IMG/VR virus record: IMGVR_UViG_3300024999_000164
Span: 1 to 46,636 of that record
Origin: a virus
DNA length: 46,636 nt
Strand: one strand, 5' to 3'
The notes under the pieces: generated by a model
Database searches by the model: none
The model's input: the letters and a program-made list of their open reading frames with translations, nothing else
What the model was told of the DNA's origin: nothing
Made by a program: the position numbers and the translations under genes
Shown here: piece after piece, positions 5,922 through 24,557 of the stretch
How the letters are laid out: the number at the start of each line of letters is the position of its first letter
Position numbering within the stretch: the first letter of the stretch is position 1

Positions 5922-7289
5922 TTATTTATATGTCCATTTATATCCTCCTGCAGTTTTTTTGCTTCCCTTGCAACATCCAGTAATATGAGAATTATTTATA
6001 CCTAATTGTCTTCCAGCCTCTGTTGCACTTTCAAATTCTGATATATATTCATTATTCAATGATAATTGAATAATCTTTTTAATATTCCATGAAATTCTTT
6101 TATATGGCATAATATTATCATTGCATTTTTCCCAATCTTCTTTATACATCCATCTAAATCCATATGAAGTTCGTTGTTTTCCATTACAACAAAGAGATAT
6201 ACTTGAATTGTTTATTTTAATTAATTTTTTAATATCTGCAATACTTTCAAATTCAGCAATATATTTCCCATTTAAGTCTAATTGAATTACTGATCTTTTC
6301 TTCTTTTTCTCATTCGTTTGCTTCATATTTTTCTTTAATTCTTCTTTTGCATTATAACCACACCATTTTAATTCTGCACCTTGTTTCAAATACCTTGTGG
6401 CCGTTTTTCTATTTATATTTGTAATTTTACTAATTTCTAAAGTATTTCTAACACCAATATTCCATAAATCACATACTTCTTTAACTAAACTTTTACATGC
6501 ATATTCATGACATTTCAACCAGTCTATTTTTGTTAAATCAAATAATTTATTTAATTGACTATTTAATATATTATTTTTTATGTATTCTAATTCACTCTTA
6601 TCACAATCTATTCTAATTATTCCAATACCATGTTCTTTTGCTTTTATATCTTTATAATTATCTATTTCTTTAGATTTTTCTTTTGTTTGTTTAGACATTT
6701 TATTGTCTTTTTTGTGCCAACTACCATCCATTTCTAGTATATATTTTCCTATATTTAATTCAAAATAAAAATCATATCTTTTAGGTTTTATCCAATCTGG
6801 TGAATACTGATAATCATAATTATTTATTTCATATATATTTTTTAACTGATTAAATAAAGATAATCCGAATTTTTCTGGATATGACAACCCATCTGCACAA
6901 TTAGAACATGATACTATACCTTGATAAACATCTGGCCATTTTCTTTTAAATGTATTATTACATTCTAAACATTCCCATACAAGTTTTATATCTGTACCTT
7001 TATATTCGCCATTTAATCTAATTGATAAATTATTTATTTTGCAATAATTATTTATATTTTGTTTAGTATATGGATTGGATTTATGAAATTTACTAACAGA
7101 ATGATATTTTTTTATATTATGAATATAAATTTTACTATACTGATATCCTTCGTCATCTATTAAATCTAAATACGTTTTACCATTAATTATTTTTATATTT
7201 TCTATTGTCCATTTCATTCCTAAATTTTCATTAATAATTCTTCTAATTTCTTCATTTGATAATCTATTTTCTTTTGTTATTAACCCCAA
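5922..7289 (-). CDS. free-standing VSR-like (EDxHD-type) homing endonuclease
   Basis: The 455-residue protein has a zinc ribbon (CLEC...CSNC near 111-133), then SYPEKF and a nuclease core YDFYFELN...LEMDGSWHKKD with a downstream IIRID strand. This pattern recalls the very-short-patch-repair fold and the EDxHD homing endonucleases of Bacillus phages. Next is a helix-turn-helix (ISKITNINRKTATRYLKQG), then two NUMOD1-like repeats, IIQLSLNNEYISEFESA with GGYKWTYK and IQLDLNGKYIAEFESI with YGFRWMYK, which probably bind DNA. TTG start six bases after GGAGG. It sits between dnaG and recJ like a selfish insertion and has a paralogue at 15887. Activity is inferred. Confidence 0.75.
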   Translation of the reverse strand: MGLITKENRLSNEEIRRIINENLGMKWTIENIKIINGKTYLDLIDDEGYQYSKIYIHNIKKYHSVSKFHKSNPYTKQNINNYCKINNLSIRLNGEYKGTDIKLVWECLECNNTFKRKWPDVYQGIVSCSNCADGLSYPEKFGLSLFNQLKNIYEINNYDYQYSPDWIKPKRYDFYFELNIGKYILEMDGSWHKKDNKMSKQTKEKSKEIDNYKDIKAKEHGIGIIRIDCDKSELEYIKNNILNSQLNKLFDLTKIDWLKCHEYACKSLVKEVCDLWNIGVRNTLEISKITNINRKTATRYLKQGAELKWCGYNAKEELKKNMKQTNEKKKKRSVIQLDLNGKYIAEFESIADIKKLIKINNSSISLCCNGKQRTSYGFRWMYKEDWEKCNDNIMPYKRISWNIKKIIQLSLNNEYISEFESATEAGRQLGINNSHITGCCKGSKKTAGGYKWTYK

Positions 7290-14656: not shown

Positions 14657-15886
14657 TTATCTCAGTTCTATCAAATATTTAATAGTCATTTGCTCTTCTT
14701 TATAAACAATAATCTCATCATTATATAACATACTACCTGCATGTGCATGAAGTGAATTAGCACCAGGACACATTTTTTGTAGATTCTCATAATTAAGATT
14801 ATAAAACTTACTATCAAATGAATATACATCATATGGTTTGCCATAAGCAACATTAAAAAGTGCCATGAATCCAGAATTAGAATTTCCATTAGACCATCTA
14901 GAACCAGATAAAGATGTGTAACCAAGCGATTTCATGGCTTTTGGAGCGAAGTAGCAACCAAAACCGAACATCTTTCCATTTATTACCACTTTTGAAGGTC
15001 TTAAAACTAATCCCAAATTAATAATACCCCAAATATTCTCTGAACGTGATCCATGGAATAATAATCTTTGGTCTTTTATTTTTTCAGTAGTAACAAACTT
15101 TTCATATCTTTCCTGTGTCTTCAAATTAATAACCTTCCATGCAGAGTAAAACTTATTACTAATTTCACCTAATTCTTTCTTAATCATTTTTAATTCTTCT
15201 TGTGTAACTTCTTCAAATTGTAATCCCATTGCATCTAATATTGTTTTATTATTTTCTACTTTTGTTACATTGTTTTCATTTTCGTCTTTTCCTTCAATAG
15301 AATGTTGAGTAACTTGGCCTTTCATTATATCAAGTAAATCTTGTTCTCTTTGAAGTATTTCAGAATAATCCTTATCTGTTTTTGCAAGATAATCTTTAAC
15401 TTTACCCATTTTTCTAGGAATAGTTTTAAACAAATCAACTAATATCTTATTAAATAATTCAACATCATCAGTGTTAATCAAATTATTTAGTATTAATTGT
15501 GCTTCATCGATCATTTTTACCGTAACTAAATTAGAATTTATCGTATAGTTATCTTTGATTGCTTGTCGTGCCATTGATTGAAGTCTTGCTACTATTTGTG
15601 CTATAGAAGGATTATTAATATCAAGATATTCTTTCTTTTTGTTTGGTGTAATAATAGTTTCTGCGACCAATTCAGTTTTATTTTCATACCCTTTTTTAAT
15701 TTTCTCTTTTAACTTCTTATCCCATTGTGACATAGAGTATCTTGCTGTCTGATAATTTGCTACTCCAATTCTGCCATATCTTACATCAAAATAATCACCA
15801 TCTGGAATTAGACGATAATATTTATTATTATTTGCATTAGGTTCTACCTTAACTAAATATAATGATTGTAAGTTATTATATTCCAT
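14657..15886 (-). CDS. WGR-PARP: poly/mono(ADP-ribose) polymerase
   Basis: The 409-residue protein has the domain order of DNA-dependent PARPs: a WGR domain (YYRLIPDGDYFDVRYGRIG, about 24-42), a helical regulatory-like region (about 100-240), and a catalytic domain. The triad is intact: His278 in LFHGS, Tyr312 in GCYFAP, Glu391 in LYNDEIIVY; the end TIKYLIEL matches the family. It should transfer ADP-ribose from NAD+, probably triggered by DNA ends through WGR. PARPs are rare in phages. The upstream nuclease gene ends right at its ATG and supplies its ribosome site, so translation is coupled. Together with the macrodomain gene and ligA it forms one operon. Target and chain length cannot be read from sequence. 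Confidence 0.9.
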   Translation of the reverse strand: MEYNNLQSLYLVKVEPNANNNKYYRLIPDGDYFDVRYGRIGVANYQTARYSMSQWDKKLKEKIKKGYENKTELVAETIITPNKKKEYLDINNPSIAQIVARLQSMARQAIKDNYTINSNLVTVKMIDEAQLILNNLINTDDVELFNKILVDLFKTIPRKMGKVKDYLAKTDKDYSEILQREQDLLDIMKGQVTQHSIEGKDENENNVTKVENNKTILDAMGLQFEEVTQEELKMIKKELGEISNKFYSAWKVINLKTQERYEKFVTTEKIKDQRLLFHGSRSENIWGIINLGLVLRPSKVVINGKMFGFGCYFAPKAMKSLGYTSLSGSRWSNGNSNSGFMALFNVAYGKPYDVYSFDSKFYNLNYENLQKMCPGANSLHAHAGSMLYNDEIIVYKEEQMTIKYLIELR

Positions 15887-17203
15887 TTATTTCTCCTTAT
15901 TTATATTTCTATTTTTATCCCTTGTTAAAATTCCACCCTTTCTTAATTCTTCTTTTGCATCATAATTGCACCAACCAAGTATAGTACCTTGTTTTAAATA
16001 TCTTGTAATTGTGCTTCTACTTAATTTTAATTTATTGGATATTAATAATACATTATCCATTCCTTTATTCCATAAATCACATGCTTCTTTTACTAAACTA
16101 CTTAATCCACACTCATGACATTTTAACCAATCTATATCTTCTTCTTTGAAATTTAATAATGTTGGTAATTCACTATTCATAATACTACTTTTAATCCATT
16201 CTAATTCACTATACCTACAATCAATAATTATGTAATTCTCAATATTATTGTCTTTTGCTAATTGTTTTTTTATTTTATCATTCTCTTGAATTTCTTTTAA
16301 TGATTGACTTCTATTAAATTCCTTATAATGTTGAATTCCATTTGTCTCAATAATCCCATTAATTAATTGGATGTAAAAATCATATTTATAATTATCACAC
16401 CAAATAAAAGTTGTTTTTGATAATTGTGCTTGAAAATTATCATTTAATAATTGCTCTAATAAACTAAACATAAATTTTTCAGGATAGCTAATTCCATCAC
16501 CACATTTAGGACAACTCATACCATGTTTTACTAAACTGCTGATATACATATTTTTTATATGTTTGCAATTTGGACAAATTATATTAACTTTTTCTTGTGA
16601 ACCATAAGAATATTTATATGTATCTTCTTTATTAACAAAATACCTAACTAATTCTGGATGAGTTGTTATAATTGCATTACATTGATTGCAATTCATAGAA
16701 CCTTCTTGTCCATGAGTAAAATCATTTATACTTTTTAATTCACTATTATGTAATTCTCTAGGACATTTAAAATACATATATTTATTTGCCGAATACAAAA
16801 TTTCACTAGGTTTTAAATCATTTAATTCATAGTCCCATCTTTCTAATACATTTTCTCTATTATTATCAATACACCATTGTTCAAATGATTTACCGTTTTT
16901 AAGTCTAGTTTTCTTTATTTTATCTCTTGCAAATAATTCTGTGGCACAATTTTTACAGTAATATTTGCCATGTTTATGTATACTATTTTTATAAATATAG
17001 TAGTTTATGAATTTTATATTTGGATTCTTACAATTTTCATAATCACATTTTACTTTTACTTTTATATTGTTATTATTATCTGATAAATCTTCTATCTTTA
17101 CTTCAAATTCATCACCTATTTTAGTAAAAATGTGTCCTTTATTCTCGTACCATTTTCTATTATTTCCATGCCATTTTACTTTAACTGAGGTGGATAATAA
17201 CAT
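15887..17203 (-). CDS. free-standing VSR-like homing endonuclease, paralogue
   Basis: The 438-residue protein shares the layout of the nuclease at 5922: zinc-binding segments (YYCKNC; CPNCKH and CPKCGD), SYPEKFMFSLLEQL, and core YDFYIQLINGIIETNGIQHYKE with a later IIIDCR strand. Then come IDWLKCHE and a helix-turn-helix SNKLKLSRSTITRYLKQG, almost the same as in the paralogue. The NUMOD1-like tail is absent. The active-site glutamate and histidine are present (IETNGIQHY). It is inserted between the macrodomain and PARP genes, and its last codons carry the AAGGAG site for PARP. Confidence 0.72.
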   Translation of the reverse strand: MLLSTSVKVKWHGNNRKWYENKGHIFTKIGDEFEVKIEDLSDNNNNIKVKVKCDYENCKNPNIKFINYYIYKNSIHKHGKYYCKNCATELFARDKIKKTRLKNGKSFEQWCIDNNRENVLERWDYELNDLKPSEILYSANKYMYFKCPRELHNSELKSINDFTHGQEGSMNCNQCNAIITTHPELVRYFVNKEDTYKYSYGSQEKVNIICPNCKHIKNMYISSLVKHGMSCPKCGDGISYPEKFMFSLLEQLLNDNFQAQLSKTTFIWCDNYKYDFYIQLINGIIETNGIQHYKEFNRSQSLKEIQENDKIKKQLAKDNNIENYIIIDCRYSELEWIKSSIMNSELPTLLNFKEEDIDWLKCHECGLSSLVKEACDLWNKGMDNVLLISNKLKLSRSTITRYLKQGTILGWCNYDAKEELRKGGILTRDKNRNINKEK

Positions 17204-17213
17204 ATCAACTCTC

Positions 17214-17633
17214 CTATAAATAACAAACTAAAATTTCAATATCAATATCCTCAAATACATCTTCAATAATTTCCTTAACAGTATCCCAATTTAATTTATT
17301 GTGACCACATCCTAATAATGGAATTGCTATTTTTTCAATTTCCAATGTTTCAATACTATCAATCATATCCTCTAAAGATTCCTTTAAACTTACATATGTA
17401 GGTTTATGATAATGTTTTCTTTTAATTACTAAATTAAATACATTATCAATTAAAATAGCACAATTTTCTGGTGTATAATCAACAGTATTCTTTAATTTTT
17501 TACCCATATTATACAATTCATCAAATTTTACTGCAATTTCTGTATCTAAAACAAAATCACCTGAAATACAATGTGCAAAGTAATAACCATGTGGTACAGA
17601 AAATAAATCTCTTTGTTCTTCTTTTAAAATCAT
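17214..17633 (-). CDS. macrodomain protein, probable ADP-ribose binder or hydrolase
   Basis: The 139-residue protein is a single macrodomain of the POA1/ALC1 type. The N-terminal AHCISGDFVLDTEIAVKF fits the ADP-ribose site that usually reads HCVSADLxMGxGIA, and IPLLGCGHNKLNW (about 104-116) fits the LGCGxGGLxW loop. Such domains remove ADP-ribose from protein, DNA or RNA ends, or process ADP-ribose 1''-phosphate. It is co-transcribed with the PARP, so a writer-eraser pair is likely. ATG after AAAGGAG. Confidence 0.88.
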   Translation of the reverse strand: MILKEEQRDLFSVPHGYYFAHCISGDFVLDTEIAVKFDELYNMGKKLKNTVDYTPENCAILIDNVFNLVIKRKHYHKPTYVSLKESLEDMIDSIETLEIEKIAIPLLGCGHNKLNWDTVKEIIEDVFEDIDIEILVCYL

Positions 17634-17688
17634 AATAACATTTCTCCTTTTTGTTTATTTTTATTTAATTATATTCATATTTTATTTG

Positions 17689-17719
17689 AATCAAGGGTAA
17701 ATACTTAATACCCTTGATT
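17689..17719 (-). other. 11-bp stem-loop across the ligA stop codon
   Basis: Perfect arms AATCAAGGGTA / TACCCTTGATT with a 9-base loop that holds the ligA TAA. No U-tract follows. It may tune passage from ligA to the macrodomain gene. Confidence 0.5.
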
Positions 17720-19663
17720 AATAATTCTAATAAATTCATCTTCACTTATAACTTGAATTCCATCTTTTTTAGCTTTATCTACTTTACTACTACTTTTCAG
17801 AGAACCTTCAATTAGATAGTCTAAAGATTTAGCATATCCATTTGCAAATTCTGCACCTAAACTTTCAAATAATGATTTTAATTCTTCTTTCTTATAATGT
17901 AAAAAACTTCCAGTTGCATAAATCTTCTTTCCTTTAAAGAAATTATCCTTAATTGTTGTTTCTTCTTTTTTAACTTCACTATCTGAAAAATTCATATATT
18001 CAACTAAATCAAGAATAATATCAATATTTTCTAATCTATACTGTACTATTGATTCAGCAGTAATATCACCTATCCCATCAATATTAAGCAATTCTACATT
18101 TTTAGCATTAATAAAATCATGAATAGTTTTAAACTTTTTAGCAATTAATTTAGCAGTAGAAGAACCTACTCCTTCAATACCCAATCCAACAATAAAATTA
18201 GCAAGTTTAACATTCTTAGAATTTTCTATCGAAGTTAACAATCTATTATAAGATTTAATTCCAAATCCTTCCAATTTGATAATTTTACTTTTATATTGTT
18301 CTAATCTATAAATATCCCCAAATGTTTTAATAAATTCTAACTTTAAAAATTTCTCTAATGTTGCTTCAGATAATCCTTCAATATTTATAGCATTACGTTT
18401 AACAAAGTTAACCATCTTGTCAAGTAATTGTGCTTGACAGTTTTTGTTTTTACAAAATAAAACATCTGCTGTCCCAGTATTTTTAACATATGTTTCTTCA
18501 CCACATGAAGGACAATGTTCAGGATATAACATAATACCATTGTCTCTATCTAAATTATCTTCTACATGAGGAATAATTAAATTGCGTTTACTTACTAATA
18601 TTTTACACCCAATATTAAGATTCAATCCTTCGATAAATGATAAATTGTGTAATGATGCTCTACTCACTTCTGTATTATCAATAATAACTGTATCAAAAAT
18701 AGCAGTAGGATTAATTAAACCTGTTCTTGTAGTATTCCATTCAACATCTCTTAAAGTTGATTCAAAGACATCATCATAAAACTTAAAAGACAAACTATGC
18801 AATGGATGATGTGAGGTCTCAGGTAATGAATTAGAATATTTTACTGAATTATAACTTACTACTAAGCCATCTATTGGTATCTTCTTTTCTTCTGCTAAAT
18901 TTTTAAATGAATCAATAATATCTTCAGTAATATCAGTAGAAAGTTTAATATGTTCAACTAAAGTAAATCCTAAATATTTTAACCATTGAAATTGTTCAAA
19001 TTTTGAATCAGACAATTCTTTATTGCATTCAATAATATTAAAAGCATGAAAATATACTTTTCTTTGTGAACATATTTCACTGTTTAATTGTCTTACTGAT
19101 CCTGAAACTAGATTTCTAGGTGTTGCATATTTCTCATCATCAGGCAATTTAGAATTAATTTCTTCAAAATCATCTTTATGAATAATTGCTTCACCACTTA
19201 ATCTTAACTTACCTTTAAATGGTACGAATAAAGGAAAATCATTAATTACTTTAACATTATGAGAAATTTCTTCTCCGATTTCACCATTGCCTCTGGTATA
19301 TCCACCCGTAAATTCACCATTTTCATAATTTACTTCTACTGTTAAACCATCATCTTTAAGCATAAGTAAAGTTTCTTTACCTTTTCTCCATTCGTTTAAT
19401 TCATCAATAGATTTAGTTTTATCTAATGATTTGAGTAAAGTAGGATGTGTACGTTTTTGTAGTTTACTTTTAACTTCATATCCTACTGTAATTGTTGGAG
19501 AATTAGAAAGAATATATCCAGTTTCTTGCTCAAGATTAAATAATTCTTCTACCATTTTATCATATTGTAAATCTGTAATAGTTGGTTTATTTAGATTGTA
19601 ATAATTATTTCTATGGACATTTAATTCTTTTACTAATTCTTGAATACTTTGAATCTTATCCAA
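17705..19663 (-). CDS. ligA: NAD+-dependent DNA ligase LigA
   Basis: The 652-residue protein has the full bacterial LigA layout: Ia helices, adenylation motif LKDDG with Lys103, OB domain, a four-cysteine zinc finger (CPSCGEE...CKNKNC near 400), helix-hairpin-helix repeats (GIEGVGSSTAKLI, LNIDGIGDITAESI) and a C-terminal BRCT domain (GKKIYATGSF). It seals nicks using NAD+, releasing NMN. The length is close to cellular LigA (about 670). TTG start after AAAGGAGG. It leads the operon with the macrodomain and PARP genes. Confidence 0.96.
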   Translation of the reverse strand: MDKIQSIQELVKELNVHRNNYYNLNKPTITDLQYDKMVEELFNLEQETGYILSNSPTITVGYEVKSKLQKRTHPTLLKSLDKTKSIDELNEWRKGKETLLMLKDDGLTVEVNYENGEFTGGYTRGNGEIGEEISHNVKVINDFPLFVPFKGKLRLSGEAIIHKDDFEEINSKLPDDEKYATPRNLVSGSVRQLNSEICSQRKVYFHAFNIIECNKELSDSKFEQFQWLKYLGFTLVEHIKLSTDITEDIIDSFKNLAEEKKIPIDGLVVSYNSVKYSNSLPETSHHPLHSLSFKFYDDVFESTLRDVEWNTTRTGLINPTAIFDTVIIDNTEVSRASLHNLSFIEGLNLNIGCKILVSKRNLIIPHVEDNLDRDNGIMLYPEHCPSCGEETYVKNTGTADVLFCKNKNCQAQLLDKMVNFVKRNAINIEGLSEATLEKFLKLEFIKTFGDIYRLEQYKSKIIKLEGFGIKSYNRLLTSIENSKNVKLANFIVGLGIEGVGSSTAKLIAKKFKTIHDFINAKNVELLNIDGIGDITAESIVQYRLENIDIILDLVEYMNFSDSEVKKEETTIKDNFFKGKKIYATGSFLHYKKEELKSLFESLGAEFANGYAKSLDYLIEGSLKSSSKVDKAKKDGIQVISEDEFIRIINQGY

Positions 19664-19706: not shown

Positions 19707-19970
19707 CTACTCAAATTTCATTTCCTTCAATTTCTCTAATTGTTTCTTCACATTAGCAATCTTATTAATTTTCATTTTCTCTGCACGTTTAATAGCAGAT
19801 TCTTTTGTCCTATGCCAATCCTTTCCCTCACCAAAATACATTTCACCTTGATTTTTTACTACTTTTACATAAGTTTTATCCTCATTATATGAAGGAAATT
19901 CAACTTCTACTTCAAATATACCCTGAGTTAACGAATATTTAGTAATTCATACTTTAAAACTATCACTCAT
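19707..19970 (-). pseudogene. small phage protein with an in-frame TGA at a Trp position
   Basis: The frame starts ATG after AAAGGAGG and reads MSDSFKV, then TGA (19947-19949), then ITKYSLTQGIFEVEVEF and on to TAG at 19707, 87 codons in all. From memory, related phage proteins read KVWITKYALTxGI, so TGG has become TGA. The rest of the frame is clean. The lesion is either real, a sequencing error, or read through. It is the first gene of the ligA operon. Confidence 0.75.
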
Positions 19971-20011
19971 AATTACTTCCTCCTTTATTAATAACCGTTT
20001 AATCTTTCTTC

Positions 20012-20040
20012 ATTATACAATTATTTTTCATATCTGTCAA
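20012..20040 (-). promoter_or_regulatory. SigA-type promoter for the ligA-macro-PARP operon
   Basis: TTGACA (20035-20040), 17-bp spacer, TATAAT (20012-20017), 42 bases ahead of the ATG at 19970. Confidence 0.85.
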
Positions 20041-20848: not shown

Positions 20849-22207
20849 TTATTTATCCATATATTCATTTTTAACAATTTCTAATAGCACATCTCTATTA
20901 TTCAATTTATAATTCTCCAAAACTTTCTCTAACAATTCATTTAGTATTTCCCCTATCATAAACCCTTGCTCAATACCTAATTCCATTAAATCATATCCAT
21001 TGATTTTTAAATCTTTAACTGTTAATGGTTGTTTTTCTGCAATAATTCTATGACATTCTCCTACTAAAAATGCAACATTATCTATTTTACTTTGATCTTT
21101 ATTCTTAGATCCTTTAATATCTGCAATCCGTAAACAAAACAAATTTTCTAAATTATCAATTCCTACTCTGTTTATGAATTTTTTAATAACAGATGTTTTT
21201 ATTTTATTTTTTTCATTAAAACTAAACATATGTTCTCTAACTAATATTTTTACATCATTGATAGTTTTATTATCAAATTTTAATCTAGTTAATATTTCTT
21301 CTGTTAATTTTTCTCCTTCTATATGATGGTAGTAGAAATGACCAATATTATTTTCATCTAAAGTAAAACACATAGGTTTAGCAATATCATGTAGTAATGC
21401 AGATAGTCTTATATTTAATACTTTTGGAGTATTGTCTACTACAGATAGAATATGCTCAAATACATCTTTATCGTGATTATAATTATGTTGCTCAAATCCT
21501 ACGCATTTACATAATTCAGGTATAATATATTGTAATAAACTAGTTTCTTGTAATAATCTAATTCCATAAGAAGGAATATTACTCATTAATATTTTACATA
21601 ATTCATCTCTAATTCTTTCTTTAGAAATCATTTGAATAAGATATGCGTTTTTAATAATAGATTTAAAAGTATTTTCTTCAATAGTGAAATTATGTTGTGT
21701 AGATAACCTAATCGCTCTCATCATCCTCAAAGAATCTTCATTAAAACGATCATTAGGATTGCCTACACAACGAATAATTTTATTTTCAATATCTTTCAAT
21801 CCACTAAAATAATCATATACATTTCTGTTTACATCAATGGCAATAGAATTCATTGTAAAATCTCTACGTGCAACATCTTCTTCTAATTTATCTGTGTAAA
21901 ATACTTCTTCAGGACTCCTATTATCTTTATATACACCCTCCCTTCTCATAGATGTTATTTCATAACTTACTTCTTCATAATTTTCATCTTTCAATATAAT
22001 AGTAACAGTGCCATGTTTAATTCCAGTATCATATGATTTAACAAATAATGATTTTACTTGTTCAGGTATTGCATCAGTACAAATATCATAATCTTTCGGA
22101 CATTTATAACTAAAAATATCTCTTGTACTGCCTCCAATTAGGTATCCTTGAAAACCATTATATTCTAAATGACTAAGTATATATTCTACTGCTCTTGGTA
22201 TTTCCAT
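20849..22207 (-). CDS. cca: CCA-adding enzyme / tRNA nucleotidyltransferase with HD domain
   Basis: The 452-residue protein is a class II nucleotidyltransferase: LIGGSTRDIF and KDYDICTDA give the metal aspartates, and ARRDFTMNSIA and RFNEDSLRMMRAIR are the CCA enzyme and poly(A) polymerase motifs. Residues about 240-340 form an HD domain (LSALLHDIAKP, HHIEGEKL). It rebuilds or repairs the 3' CCA of tRNA. The TGA of the preceding gene lies nine bases before its ATG, and GAGGTGAT is the ribosome site. Grouping with an RNA ligase suggests tRNA repair. Confidence 0.93.
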   Translation of the reverse strand: MEIPRAVEYILSHLEYNGFQGYLIGGSTRDIFSYKCPKDYDICTDAIPEQVKSLFVKSYDTGIKHGTVTIILKDENYEEVSYEITSMRREGVYKDNRSPEEVFYTDKLEEDVARRDFTMNSIAIDVNRNVYDYFSGLKDIENKIIRCVGNPNDRFNEDSLRMMRAIRLSTQHNFTIEENTFKSIIKNAYLIQMISKERIRDELCKILMSNIPSYGIRLLQETSLLQYIIPELCKCVGFEQHNYNHDKDVFEHILSVVDNTPKVLNIRLSALLHDIAKPMCFTLDENNIGHFYYHHIEGEKLTEEILTRLKFDNKTINDVKILVREHMFSFNEKNKIKTSVIKKFINRVGIDNLENLFCLRIADIKGSKNKDQSKIDNVAFLVGECHRIIAEKQPLTVKDLKINGYDLMELGIEQGFMIGEILNELLEKVLENYKLNNRDVLLEIVKNEYMDK

Positions 22208-22216
22208 ATTATCACC

Positions 22217-23218
22217 TCAATCTTTAAACTTACTAAAACTTTGTAATACCATATCACATAATAAATCATTAATCTTTTTTCTATCTGGTGAATGTGGTAA
22301 TTTAGATTTATCATATGTTTCGTCTAATTGAATAAATAATTTTTCTGCGTGTGATTTTACTTGTTCTAAAGTATATTCACCATTTCTAATTGCTAATAAA
22401 TAATCTTTTTCTGGTCTTAAAACTGTTAAATATCCTGTATTTAAAATTTCCAAACCCATTAATAATAATCTAATTAAATGCAATCCATGTTTCACATCAT
22501 AACCATATTGTTCTATTAAATCTTTATGTGAACCTATATGTTTATGTTGTCCCTTCCCCATTTCTTCTTCAACTTTACTAATTTCTTGATCAATATTAAC
22601 AATTCTATTCTCATAATCATTAATTTCATTAGTTATTTCAATGATTTTTTCTGCATCATTGTCTGTAATTTCATCAATATTTTTCTTTACAATTTCCAAT
22701 TTATAATTTAATTTTGTTAAATAAATATTATATTGTCTTTTATGTTCATTAAGATTTTTAATTCTTTGTTTTAATTCGTTAACAGGTAATTTATTAGTTA
22801 ATCTCTTCAATTGACTGTAAGCATATCCACCAAATGTATGTTTTGCACGTTTGGTTAAAAATAAATTACGATTATTTAAAAGTATTTCACCAAATTCATC
22901 ACAATGAATAATATGTTTTTCATCAACAAATAAATGTTCTACAATATTTGGATTACAATTTGAAGCAAGATTAATAAATTTATGCAAACTAAAAATTGTT
23001 GCTTCTGCTTTATTATTTTCTACTTTATAATTATGATAATTAATATAATCTTTACATTCATATTGTTCAAAATTTTCAAATCCAATAATATATTCTTTTG
23101 GAGGAATACAAATCCCTCCAAAATCTATATCACTGTTTTCATGATTTGTTCCATATGAATGACTTCCTCTATAGACTTTTAAAATAGTTCTATTATCAAT
23201 CCATTTTATTACATCCAT
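22217..23218 (-). CDS. predicted nucleotidyltransferase, COG3541-like
   Basis: The 333-residue protein starts with a polymerase-beta-type nucleotidyltransferase core: RGSHSYGTNHENSDIDFGG (about 18-36) with the two metal aspartates, then GFENFEQYECK. A charged coiled-coil segment spans about 160-225. Such proteins occur in large phages next to RNA-processing genes; the substrate is unknown. Here it sits between RNA ligase and the CCA enzyme, which points to an RNA end. ATG after AGAAGGA. Confidence 0.82.
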   Translation of the reverse strand: MDVIKWIDNRTILKVYRGSHSYGTNHENSDIDFGGICIPPKEYIIGFENFEQYECKDYINYHNYKVENNKAEATIFSLHKFINLASNCNPNIVEHLFVDEKHIIHCDEFGEILLNNRNLFLTKRAKHTFGGYAYSQLKRLTNKLPVNELKQRIKNLNEHKRQYNIYLTKLNYKLEIVKKNIDEITDNDAEKIIEITNEINDYENRIVNIDQEISKVEEEMGKGQHKHIGSHKDLIEQYGYDVKHGLHLIRLLLMGLEILNTGYLTVLRPEKDYLLAIRNGEYTLEQVKSHAEKLFIQLDETYDKSKLPHSPDRKKINDLLCDMVLQSFSKFKD

Positions 23219-23243
23219 AATTTAATTCCTTCTTTCTTAAATT

Positions 23244-24557
23244 TTATACTACTTCTTCTTCAACAATAGAATTTTCTTCTTCCATATCAAGTATATCATC
23301 TGCCTTAATAATCCCTTCAAGCAGTTTAAATGAAAACGATTTGTGTTTATATGCAGTAAATTTTTCTTTATTATCTACCCTTACAACCACACCTTCTTTA
23401 ATGTGTGTTTTACCTATTGGATCACTACCTTCAACACAATTATTTACTATTGTCATTAAATCATCAACATTAGTAAATAAATATTTGCCGAATTCAGGTA
23501 CATGTTTTACTCCCATTTTTTCACAATATATTTTTACAATTTCCCAAGGAATTTCAATAATATTACCATCTTCATCTGTTTTAGTCATTCTGTAAACATA
23601 AATATCATTTTGTCCTACTCCGCATCCGTATGTAAATCTTGTAGTTTCACCATATTGTTTAATGAATTCTTTATCTTTTGTTTTCTTATTATTACATTCT
23701 GGCATAATAAGTTGGTTTTCATTTACATATCCTACTATTTCATAATAAACAGTAATCCCTTTTTGCAATTTACCAACAAAGAAATCATGCCACTCTTTTC
23801 TAAAATTATCATTACCATAGAATCCATTATCATAATTTTTTAATACTACTCTTCTTGTACCAGAAATATAATCCCATGTCTTTTTAATAGGTAATTCTAT
23901 TTTTACAAATTTTAATATCCTATGCAACCAATAAGGTAATAATTTTTTCTTTTCTTTAATAGTATAAGAACTACGACCACTCGATCCATGCATCTTCAAA
24001 GTAACATAGCATAAATCACCTTCTTTAAATTGTGCAGTATTATAAGCAAGTTGTGATGTATCTCTGTGTTCTTCAAAGAATGGATAAGAAATAGTATCAG
24101 TTTTCTTCTTTCTTTTCTCTTTTTGCAATCCTTCTACTTTATTCTTCTTACCTTCAGGAATATATTTTTCGCATATTAATATCCCATTAAGAGTAGTAAT
24201 TACATCTCCTTCTTTTAAAGTATTAATATCAGTAAATTTTTCTAAACTTTTTAATGGCATTAGCAACCCATCGGACTTCTCTTTTCTTAGTTTAATGGTA
24301 GTGACATGGCATTTAGATTCGTCCATATAACCACCAACATTATTACCTTGTTCATCTTTCTCTCTTAAAAGTCTATTCTGTCTGCAATATTCTGTATTAA
24401 GACGACCATCTGTAGGAAAATAAATTGCTAAATCATTTATTTTTGCATCCAATCCTACAATAACATCATTCCCAAATACAGTTACTACTTGAAGTCTATC
24501 TGCATTTGAGTGTGGTCTAATTTCTTTAATTTTAACTATATATGCATTATAACTCAC
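23244..24557 (-). CDS. RNA ligase, DraRnl (Rnl5)-like
   Basis: The 437-residue protein has an N-terminal domain that looks like an OB fold (about 1-125) and then the ligase core: motif I LKMHGSSGRSS with Lys188 as the AMP-bound residue, motif IV KEGVVVRVD and motif V YKHKSFSFK near the C terminus. The N-terminal placement of an OB domain recalls the Deinococcus RNA ligase group, which seals 3'-OH/5'-P nicks. GTG start 11 bases after GGGAG. It is the second gene of the apparent RNA-repair operon. Confidence 0.85.
   Translation of the reverse strand: MSYNAYIVKIKEIRPHSNADRLQVVTVFGNDVIVGLDAKINDLAIYFPTDGRLNTEYCRQNRLLREKDEQGNNVGGYMDESKCHVTTIKLRKEKSDGLLMPLKSLEKFTDINTLKEGDVITTLNGILICEKYIPEGKKNKVEGLQKEKRKKKTDTISYPFFEEHRDTSQLAYNTAQFKEGDLCYVTLKMHGSSGRSSYTIKEKKKLLPYWLHRILKFVKIELPIKKTWDYISGTRRVVLKNYDNGFYGNDNFRKEWHDFFVGKLQKGITVYYEIVGYVNENQLIMPECNNKKTKDKEFIKQYGETTRFTYGCGVGQNDIYVYRMTKTDEDGNIIEIPWEIVKIYCEKMGVKHVPEFGKYLFTNVDDLMTIVNNCVEGSDPIGKTHIKEGVVVRVDNKEKFTAYKHKSFSFKLLEGIIKADDILDMEEENSIVEEEVV

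Follow-up and report, generated by a model that had tools for sequence, protein, structure and literature searches.

Surveys have recorded PARPs in prokaryotes and phages and have proposed, by analogy, a part in host takeover. Another setting for such an enzyme is offered by a 46.6-kb IMG/VR virus record (IMGVR_UViG_3300024999_000164, positions 1-46,636; this whole stretch is called the window here), on whose minus strand genes for the DNA ligase LigA, a macrodomain protein, an endonuclease and a PARP follow one another in that order, with intergenic gaps of 71, 10 and 0 bp (Table 1). A preliminary description had located these four reading frames, all of which are present on that strand at the coordinates it gave, and had read them either as a break-repair system or as a tool against a host ADP-ribosylation defence such as DarTG. 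What follows favours break repair, or replication, over the action against DarTG, which leaves the PARP unexplained.

Table 1. Coordinates of the locus and its residues in the window, with the basis of each assignment.
Feature	Position	Strand	Basis
WGR-HD-ART PARP, PARP2/3-like architecture, 409 aa	14657..15886	-	Pfam, PDB match, model, Foldseek
Catalytic (ART) domain, PARP residues 229-407	14666..15202	-	PF00644, 9.3e-24
Glu391, H-Y-E triad	14714..14716	-	invariant among full-length members
Tyr312, H-Y-E triad	14951..14953	-	invariant
His278, H-Y-E triad	15053..15055	-	invariant
Helical block, PARP residues 93-199, at the PARP autoinhibitory HD position	15290..15610	-	AlphaFold2 model, Foldseek
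WGR (YGR) domain, PARP residues 7-70, predicted DNA-end-binding	15677..15868	-	PF05406, 4.8e-6 (above cut-off); G38, R39 invariant
Homing-type endonuclease, zinc fingers + VSR-like nuclease, 438 aa	15887..17203	-	PHROG; presence/absence
TARG1-like (ALC1-class) macrodomain, predicted ADP-ribosyl hydrolase in family, 139 aa	17214..17633	-	Pfam, PHROG, PDB, Foldseek
Macrodomain Asn112, replacing TARG1 catalytic Asp125	17298..17300	-	alignment
Macrodomain Lys71 = TARG1 catalytic Lys84, retained	17421..17423	-	alignment
Macrodomain residues 30-32 = DTE, replacing the ADP-ribose-binding GAG loop	17538..17546	-	alignment
NAD-dependent DNA ligase LigA, 652 aa, TTG start	17705..19663	-	Pfam/PHROG
Small leader gene, in-frame TGA at codon 8	19707..19971	-	sequence; relatives compared
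Predicted sigma-70-type promoter, TTGACA-17-TATAAT, into unit	20012..20040	-	12/12 consensus, spacer 17

The promoter reported earlier at 20012 does match the sigma-70-type consensus at every position (12/12). A second predicted promoter of equal quality (12/12, 14573-14545) lies only past the PARP gene, and no minus-strand terminator is predicted between the two (20040-20012 and 14573-14545), so that a single transcription unit from LigA to PARP is plausible on these predictions. The small leader gene carries TGA at codon 8 in the window and in its twin contig L005, where the relatives L011 and L012 have TGG; as no more than this one small gene is affected, the codon is best taken as a nonsense change, and a reading of TGA as Trp was ruled out. 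Directly upstream (20849-24557, minus strand) lies an RNA-repair-like block with a CCA/poly(A) polymerase, an RlaP nucleotidyltransferase and a putative RNA-ligase-like reading frame; in phage phi4:1, a tRNA nucleotidyltransferase abuts the PARP.

The PARP had been described as retaining His278, Tyr312 and Glu391; the positions are right, and all three are invariant among full-length relatives in a 55-sequence alignment, as are the Gly and Arg of the YGR motif and K319, which we take to be the equivalent of PARP1 K903. Its closest PDB sequence relatives are PARP1, PARP2 and PARP3. The HD domain has no Pfam match and is supported by the modelled helices 93-199 together with a full-length Foldseek alignment to PARP1/PARP2: in an AlphaFold2 model built with 52 relatives (mean pLDDT 82) the helical block sits between WGR and ART, and the best Foldseek matches are PARP1 and PARP2 on double-strand breaks, over the whole length and at E ~2e-20, with a TM of only about 0.5-0.65 because domain placement, which is uncertain in the model, differs. 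By its H-Y-E triad, WGR and HD features, as judged from sequence and model, the protein classes as a predicted DNA-dependent PARP (ARTD1-3 clade). Human PARP2, PARP3 and the C-terminal half of PARP1 share the WGR-HD-ART order, the triad and the K903 equivalent, whereas the phage protein is only ~20% identical to them, has YGR for WGR and lacks the PARP zinc fingers and BRCT. The Tyr that takes the place of Trp in its Y37-G38-R39 motif is the norm for bacterial PARPs (PMC5966428), and bacterial WGR-PARPs such as those of Herpetosiphon and C. difficile CD160 have the same domain order, YGR and a helical domain likewise missed by Pfam (PMC5966428). Several relatives carry a broken PARP, with nonsense codons in L019 (~6246), L020 (~10300) and L207 (~6853), L026 being the intact twin, and with the PARP of L025 (10992-11104) ending before the catalytic Glu; the gene is thus accessory.

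Co-occurrence of macrodomain and PARP in related genomes had been put forward as a test of the original proposal. It was run on 22 close viral contigs in a first scan, on 195 contigs in an alignment scan, of which 80 were kept, and on 17 loci from bacterial or archaeal genome sets; clustering of the PARPs at 85% identity gave 61 clusters. The proposal survived: the two genes are adjacent in most phage relatives, with a macrodomain within 1.5 kb of the PARP in 43 clusters, directly adjacent in 35, and a spacing of roughly -15 to 25 bp. The 18 clusters without a nearby macrodomain include several cellular Bacteroidota or rumen/gut loci. When 16 whole PARP records were searched, 15 had a clear macrodomain somewhere, the exception being phi4:1, whose gp030 was considered as a hidden macrodomain and ruled out (no Pfam match, and a PHROG of its own only). 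From the macrodomain side, a PARP lies next door or within about one gene in 23 of 36 clusters. Related metagenomes are the source of many of the close contigs, which have common ancestry, and these counts therefore do not represent independent events. The association is beyond chance, given its recurrence across many phage contigs that have diverged from one another.

The pair also keeps company with replication genes, sharing its neighbourhood with a DNA ligase or a DNA polymerase. A replication/repair gene (polymerase, ligase, primase, helicase or Sak4) occurs within 4 kb of 40 of the 55 phage-like PARP clusters, compared with 4 of 13 macrodomains without a PARP (Fisher p 0.008, a statistic that ignores phylogeny). 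Where the ligase is far away, macrodomain and PARP commonly follow DnaG, a PD-(D/E)XK nuclease and DNA polymerase III alpha, in that order.

Within the window's own clade the gene ahead of the macrodomain encodes a DNA ligase; this order is constant while the types of both ligase and macrodomain vary. LigA of the window is complete (domains Ia, adenylation (KxDG), OB, Zn, HHH and BRCT, with KDDG at residue 103), and rare: used as a query it matched the twin contig alone among the sampled virus contigs. Its use of NAD had been thought meaningful in itself, an idea that finds no support here, as an ATP-dependent ligase (PF01068) fills the slot in most close relatives; the NAD-dependent type occurs there in the window, L006, L025, L044 and L076, with no macrodomain at that place in L025. 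The ATP ligases of the slot fall into lineages only ~30-37% alike, beside PARPs that are far more alike, and next to one and the same ligase lineage the macrodomain slot holds either a TARG1-like or an SCO6735/BT1257-like protein. Mapped on a quick tree of the PARPs, the ligase state (where a ligase is near) changes 7 times and the macrodomain type 4 times. A further contig, L007, has an HNH endonuclease reading frame followed by the last 25 LigA residues (39-1077), which suggests a ligase gene interrupted by an intron- or intein-like element.

The macrodomain matches Pfam Macro (1.6e-5) and a PHROG family (7e-16), is closest in sequence to TARG1 (PDB match 2e-18), and gives a model of pLDDT 93 with TARG1 as the Foldseek match (4j5s, E 4e-15, TM 0.89, range 0.89-0.92). 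The suggestion of a possible eraser stands for the family, and is doubtful for the window copy, in which the GAG loop and the catalytic Asp are replaced. The Lys71 position is invariant across TARG1-like relatives, and the GAG loop, Lys84 and Asp125 of TARG1 are kept in all close ones; the window and L005 share the DTE and Asn substitutions and retain the Lys, departing from TARG1 at the catalytic Asp125 and the GxG loop. Another group of PARP-linked macrodomains keeps the Lys and lacks the Asp, and DarG likewise has no catalytic Asp (PMC9411070). Along the window branch, G>A/C>T accounts for 8 of 13 changes in the macrodomain gene and 9 of 45 in the PARP gene (Fisher p 0.012, post hoc). The idea of a dead gene was not supported: the frame is open and dN/dS against relatives is ~0.2, so that the protein appears altered in function or at an early stage of loss; the changes are, however, concentrated at active-site codons. 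Having lost the catalytic Asp and the GAG loop that its relatives keep, the eraser is probably impaired, weakened or altered in the window.

The VSR-like gene between macrodomain and PARP, originally counted as a member of the unit, proved to be a homing-type mobile insert that nearly all relatives lack, and it was accordingly ruled out as a repair component. Its PHROG matches (phrog_9084 and phrog_559) are to homing/HNH families (5e-24 and 1e-23), and it occupies this junction only in the window and L005, being missing from all other close relatives; on this distribution it is a passenger outside the functional unit. A 47% paralogue at 5922-7289 (minus strand) is the window's second homing-type gene. 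The same junction bears other inserts elsewhere, an HNH-type gene in L018 (3923-4720) and another homing endonuclease family in L033 (4516-5397), L061, L070, L078 and L080, and looks like an insertion hotspot.

We consider it reasonably probable that the unit works in phage replication or repair, as a cassette that reversibly places ADP-ribose at DNA breaks. In this scheme the WGR domain of the PARP would bind nicks or double-strand ends, upon which the helical domain would free the catalytic domain and NAD+ would be used to ADP-ribosylate the PARP itself, a protein of the repair machinery or the end of the DNA. This ADP-ribose may mark or protect breaks that stem from phage DNA replication or host nuclease attack, until the macrodomain takes off the (last) ADP-ribose so that the site can be completed and the phage DNA ligase can seal it. 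In phages whose ligase gene lies elsewhere, macrodomain and PARP have the DNA polymerase gene as their neighbour. The reading rests on gene content, catalytic residues, predicted fold, gene order, the exchange of ligase and macrodomain types and the replication context: a break-activated writer is suggested by the PARP architecture, an eraser by the neighbouring gene, and replication or repair by the context. From these we infer catalysis, activation by breaks, a target (the PARP itself, another protein or a DNA end) and a functional tie to the ligase. Against the cassette reading, in-place recombination of an essential ligase could maintain the slot with no link to the PARP, and phi4:1 has a PARP and no convincing macrodomain; the broken PARPs of some relatives and the altered active site of the window's own macrodomain also count against it.

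A quite conceivable alternative, though one we lean against, follows from the first of these points and is itself compatible with repair: macrodomain and PARP would form the functional pair, and the ligase would be a mere neighbour swapped in place, since each phage needs exactly one. Recombination through flanking homology could achieve such swaps, and none of 20 records holds both ligase types, large records having one or the other; a survey describes mutual exclusion of ATP- and NAD-ligases as general in viruses (PMC9503650). In more than half of the clusters, moreover, the ligase is no direct neighbour and lies tens of kb off. On the other side, macrodomain and PARP are retained downstream of the ligase in 15 of 16 close members of one lineage, and the ligase occurs in two independent arrangements, upstream of the macrodomain or downstream of the PARP, the latter order (PARP-x-ATP ligase) being that of phi4:1, L043, L106 and L040. 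L106 (8001-10940) is binned as Nanoarchaeia; archaea are reported to have no PARPs (PMC4245714), and this may be a misbinned phage contig.

A toxin-antitoxin or superinfection-exclusion system, with the PARP as a DNA-end-triggered toxin acting by NAD+ drain or by damaging ADP-ribosylation, for example of incoming phage DNA, and the macrodomain just upstream as its antitoxin, seems unlikely. It stays alive through the tight coupling of the two genes, through their order, which resembles that of an antitoxin and its toxin, and through L025, where the PARP is broken and no macrodomain is adjacent, although one is present elsewhere in that contig. A Lacrimispora genome contig (L100, 7549-10583) adds a second eraser, with macrodomain, PARP and ADP-ribosylglycohydrolase in series as a cellular three-gene ADP-ribosylation set, and ART-ARG and sirtuin-Macro writer-eraser pairs are on record in phages, with other transferase families and no described linkage to a ligase or polymerase (PMC9503650). 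Such a system sits poorly with the intact PARPs that have no macrodomain neighbour (L003, L042, L043, L098, L099 and L106), with the location in a replication block next to polymerase or ligase, and with the negative PADLOC result for the PARP. DarTG, which likewise joins an ADP-ribosyltransferase to an ALC1-class macrodomain, differs in this context too, and in its transferase: that of the phage is a WGR PARP, not DarT, and PADLOC gave no PARP match. PADLOC did match the macrodomain to that of DarG, over profile positions 71-142 of 329 only, and since the slot types TARG1 and SCO6735, like DarG, all reverse the thymidine-linked ADP-ribose of DarT (PMC9411070), and phages with a TARG1-like macrodomain and no PARP exist, the macrodomain might clear host DarT-type ADP-ribose from phage DNA whilst the PARP serves a separate role. 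We judge this less likely still: it accounts for the macrodomain only, leaving unexplained both the strict pairing with PARP and a slot that keeps a macrodomain through changes of type, and the 139-aa protein lacks the C-terminal, DarT-binding part of DarG and, in the window, active-site residues. Least probable of all is modification of host proteins by the PARP, as by T4 Alt/Mod, with the macrodomain limiting it; this is the view of phage PARPs taken in surveys (PMC7824862, PMC9503650), whereas the WGR and helical domains imply DNA dependence and the neighbours are replication genes, not head or packaging genes.

A narrower version of the cassette, which we regard as rather a long shot, makes DNA ends the PARP's true substrate, their 5' phosphates being capped with ADP-ribose against host exonucleases and the cap being resolved by macrodomain or ligase. 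PARP3 attaches ADP-ribose to 5' phosphates in gapped DNA, and the resulting product can be joined by T4, Pfu, Mth and human ligases (PMC5843604); TARG1 and SCO6735 strip ADP-ribose from DNA and protein (PMC9411070), so a relative of theirs could act as cap remover. Were this true, the cassette would be a viral end-capping and sealing pathway.

Parts of this picture have precedents. Human break repair by PARP, TARG1 and ligase uses the same type of eraser and a DNA ligase as finishing enzyme, unlike the phage in that its genes do not form one unit; the phage activities are predicted from the genes. Cellulophaga phage phi4:1 (AGO49444) and Xanthomonas phage XacN1 (BBA65562) have PARPs of the same family, ~26-33% identical to that of the window and without an adjoining TARG1-like macrodomain, although an ATP-dependent DNA ligase is encoded two genes away from that of phi4:1; both are catalogued as viral PARPs in two sources (PMC4245714, PMC7824862), and a third places PARTs among the common viral ARTs (PMC9503650). 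The cellular Bacteroidota PARP loci examined, in contrast to the phage unit, have neither ligase nor macrodomain as a neighbour. No phage unit of PARP, macrodomain and ligase or polymerase was found in the passages of the literature covered, which was mostly open-access. Phage PARPs, writer-eraser pairs and the logic of PARP repair are thus already known, and the cassette is apparently new.

Dozens of phage lineages carry a PARP and an eraser within the replication block, with ligase and eraser types interchangeable, which suggests that the logic of PARP, TARG1 and ligase is in use by bacterial viruses, in the form of a small, expressible three-protein set for break-dependent writing, erasing and sealing.
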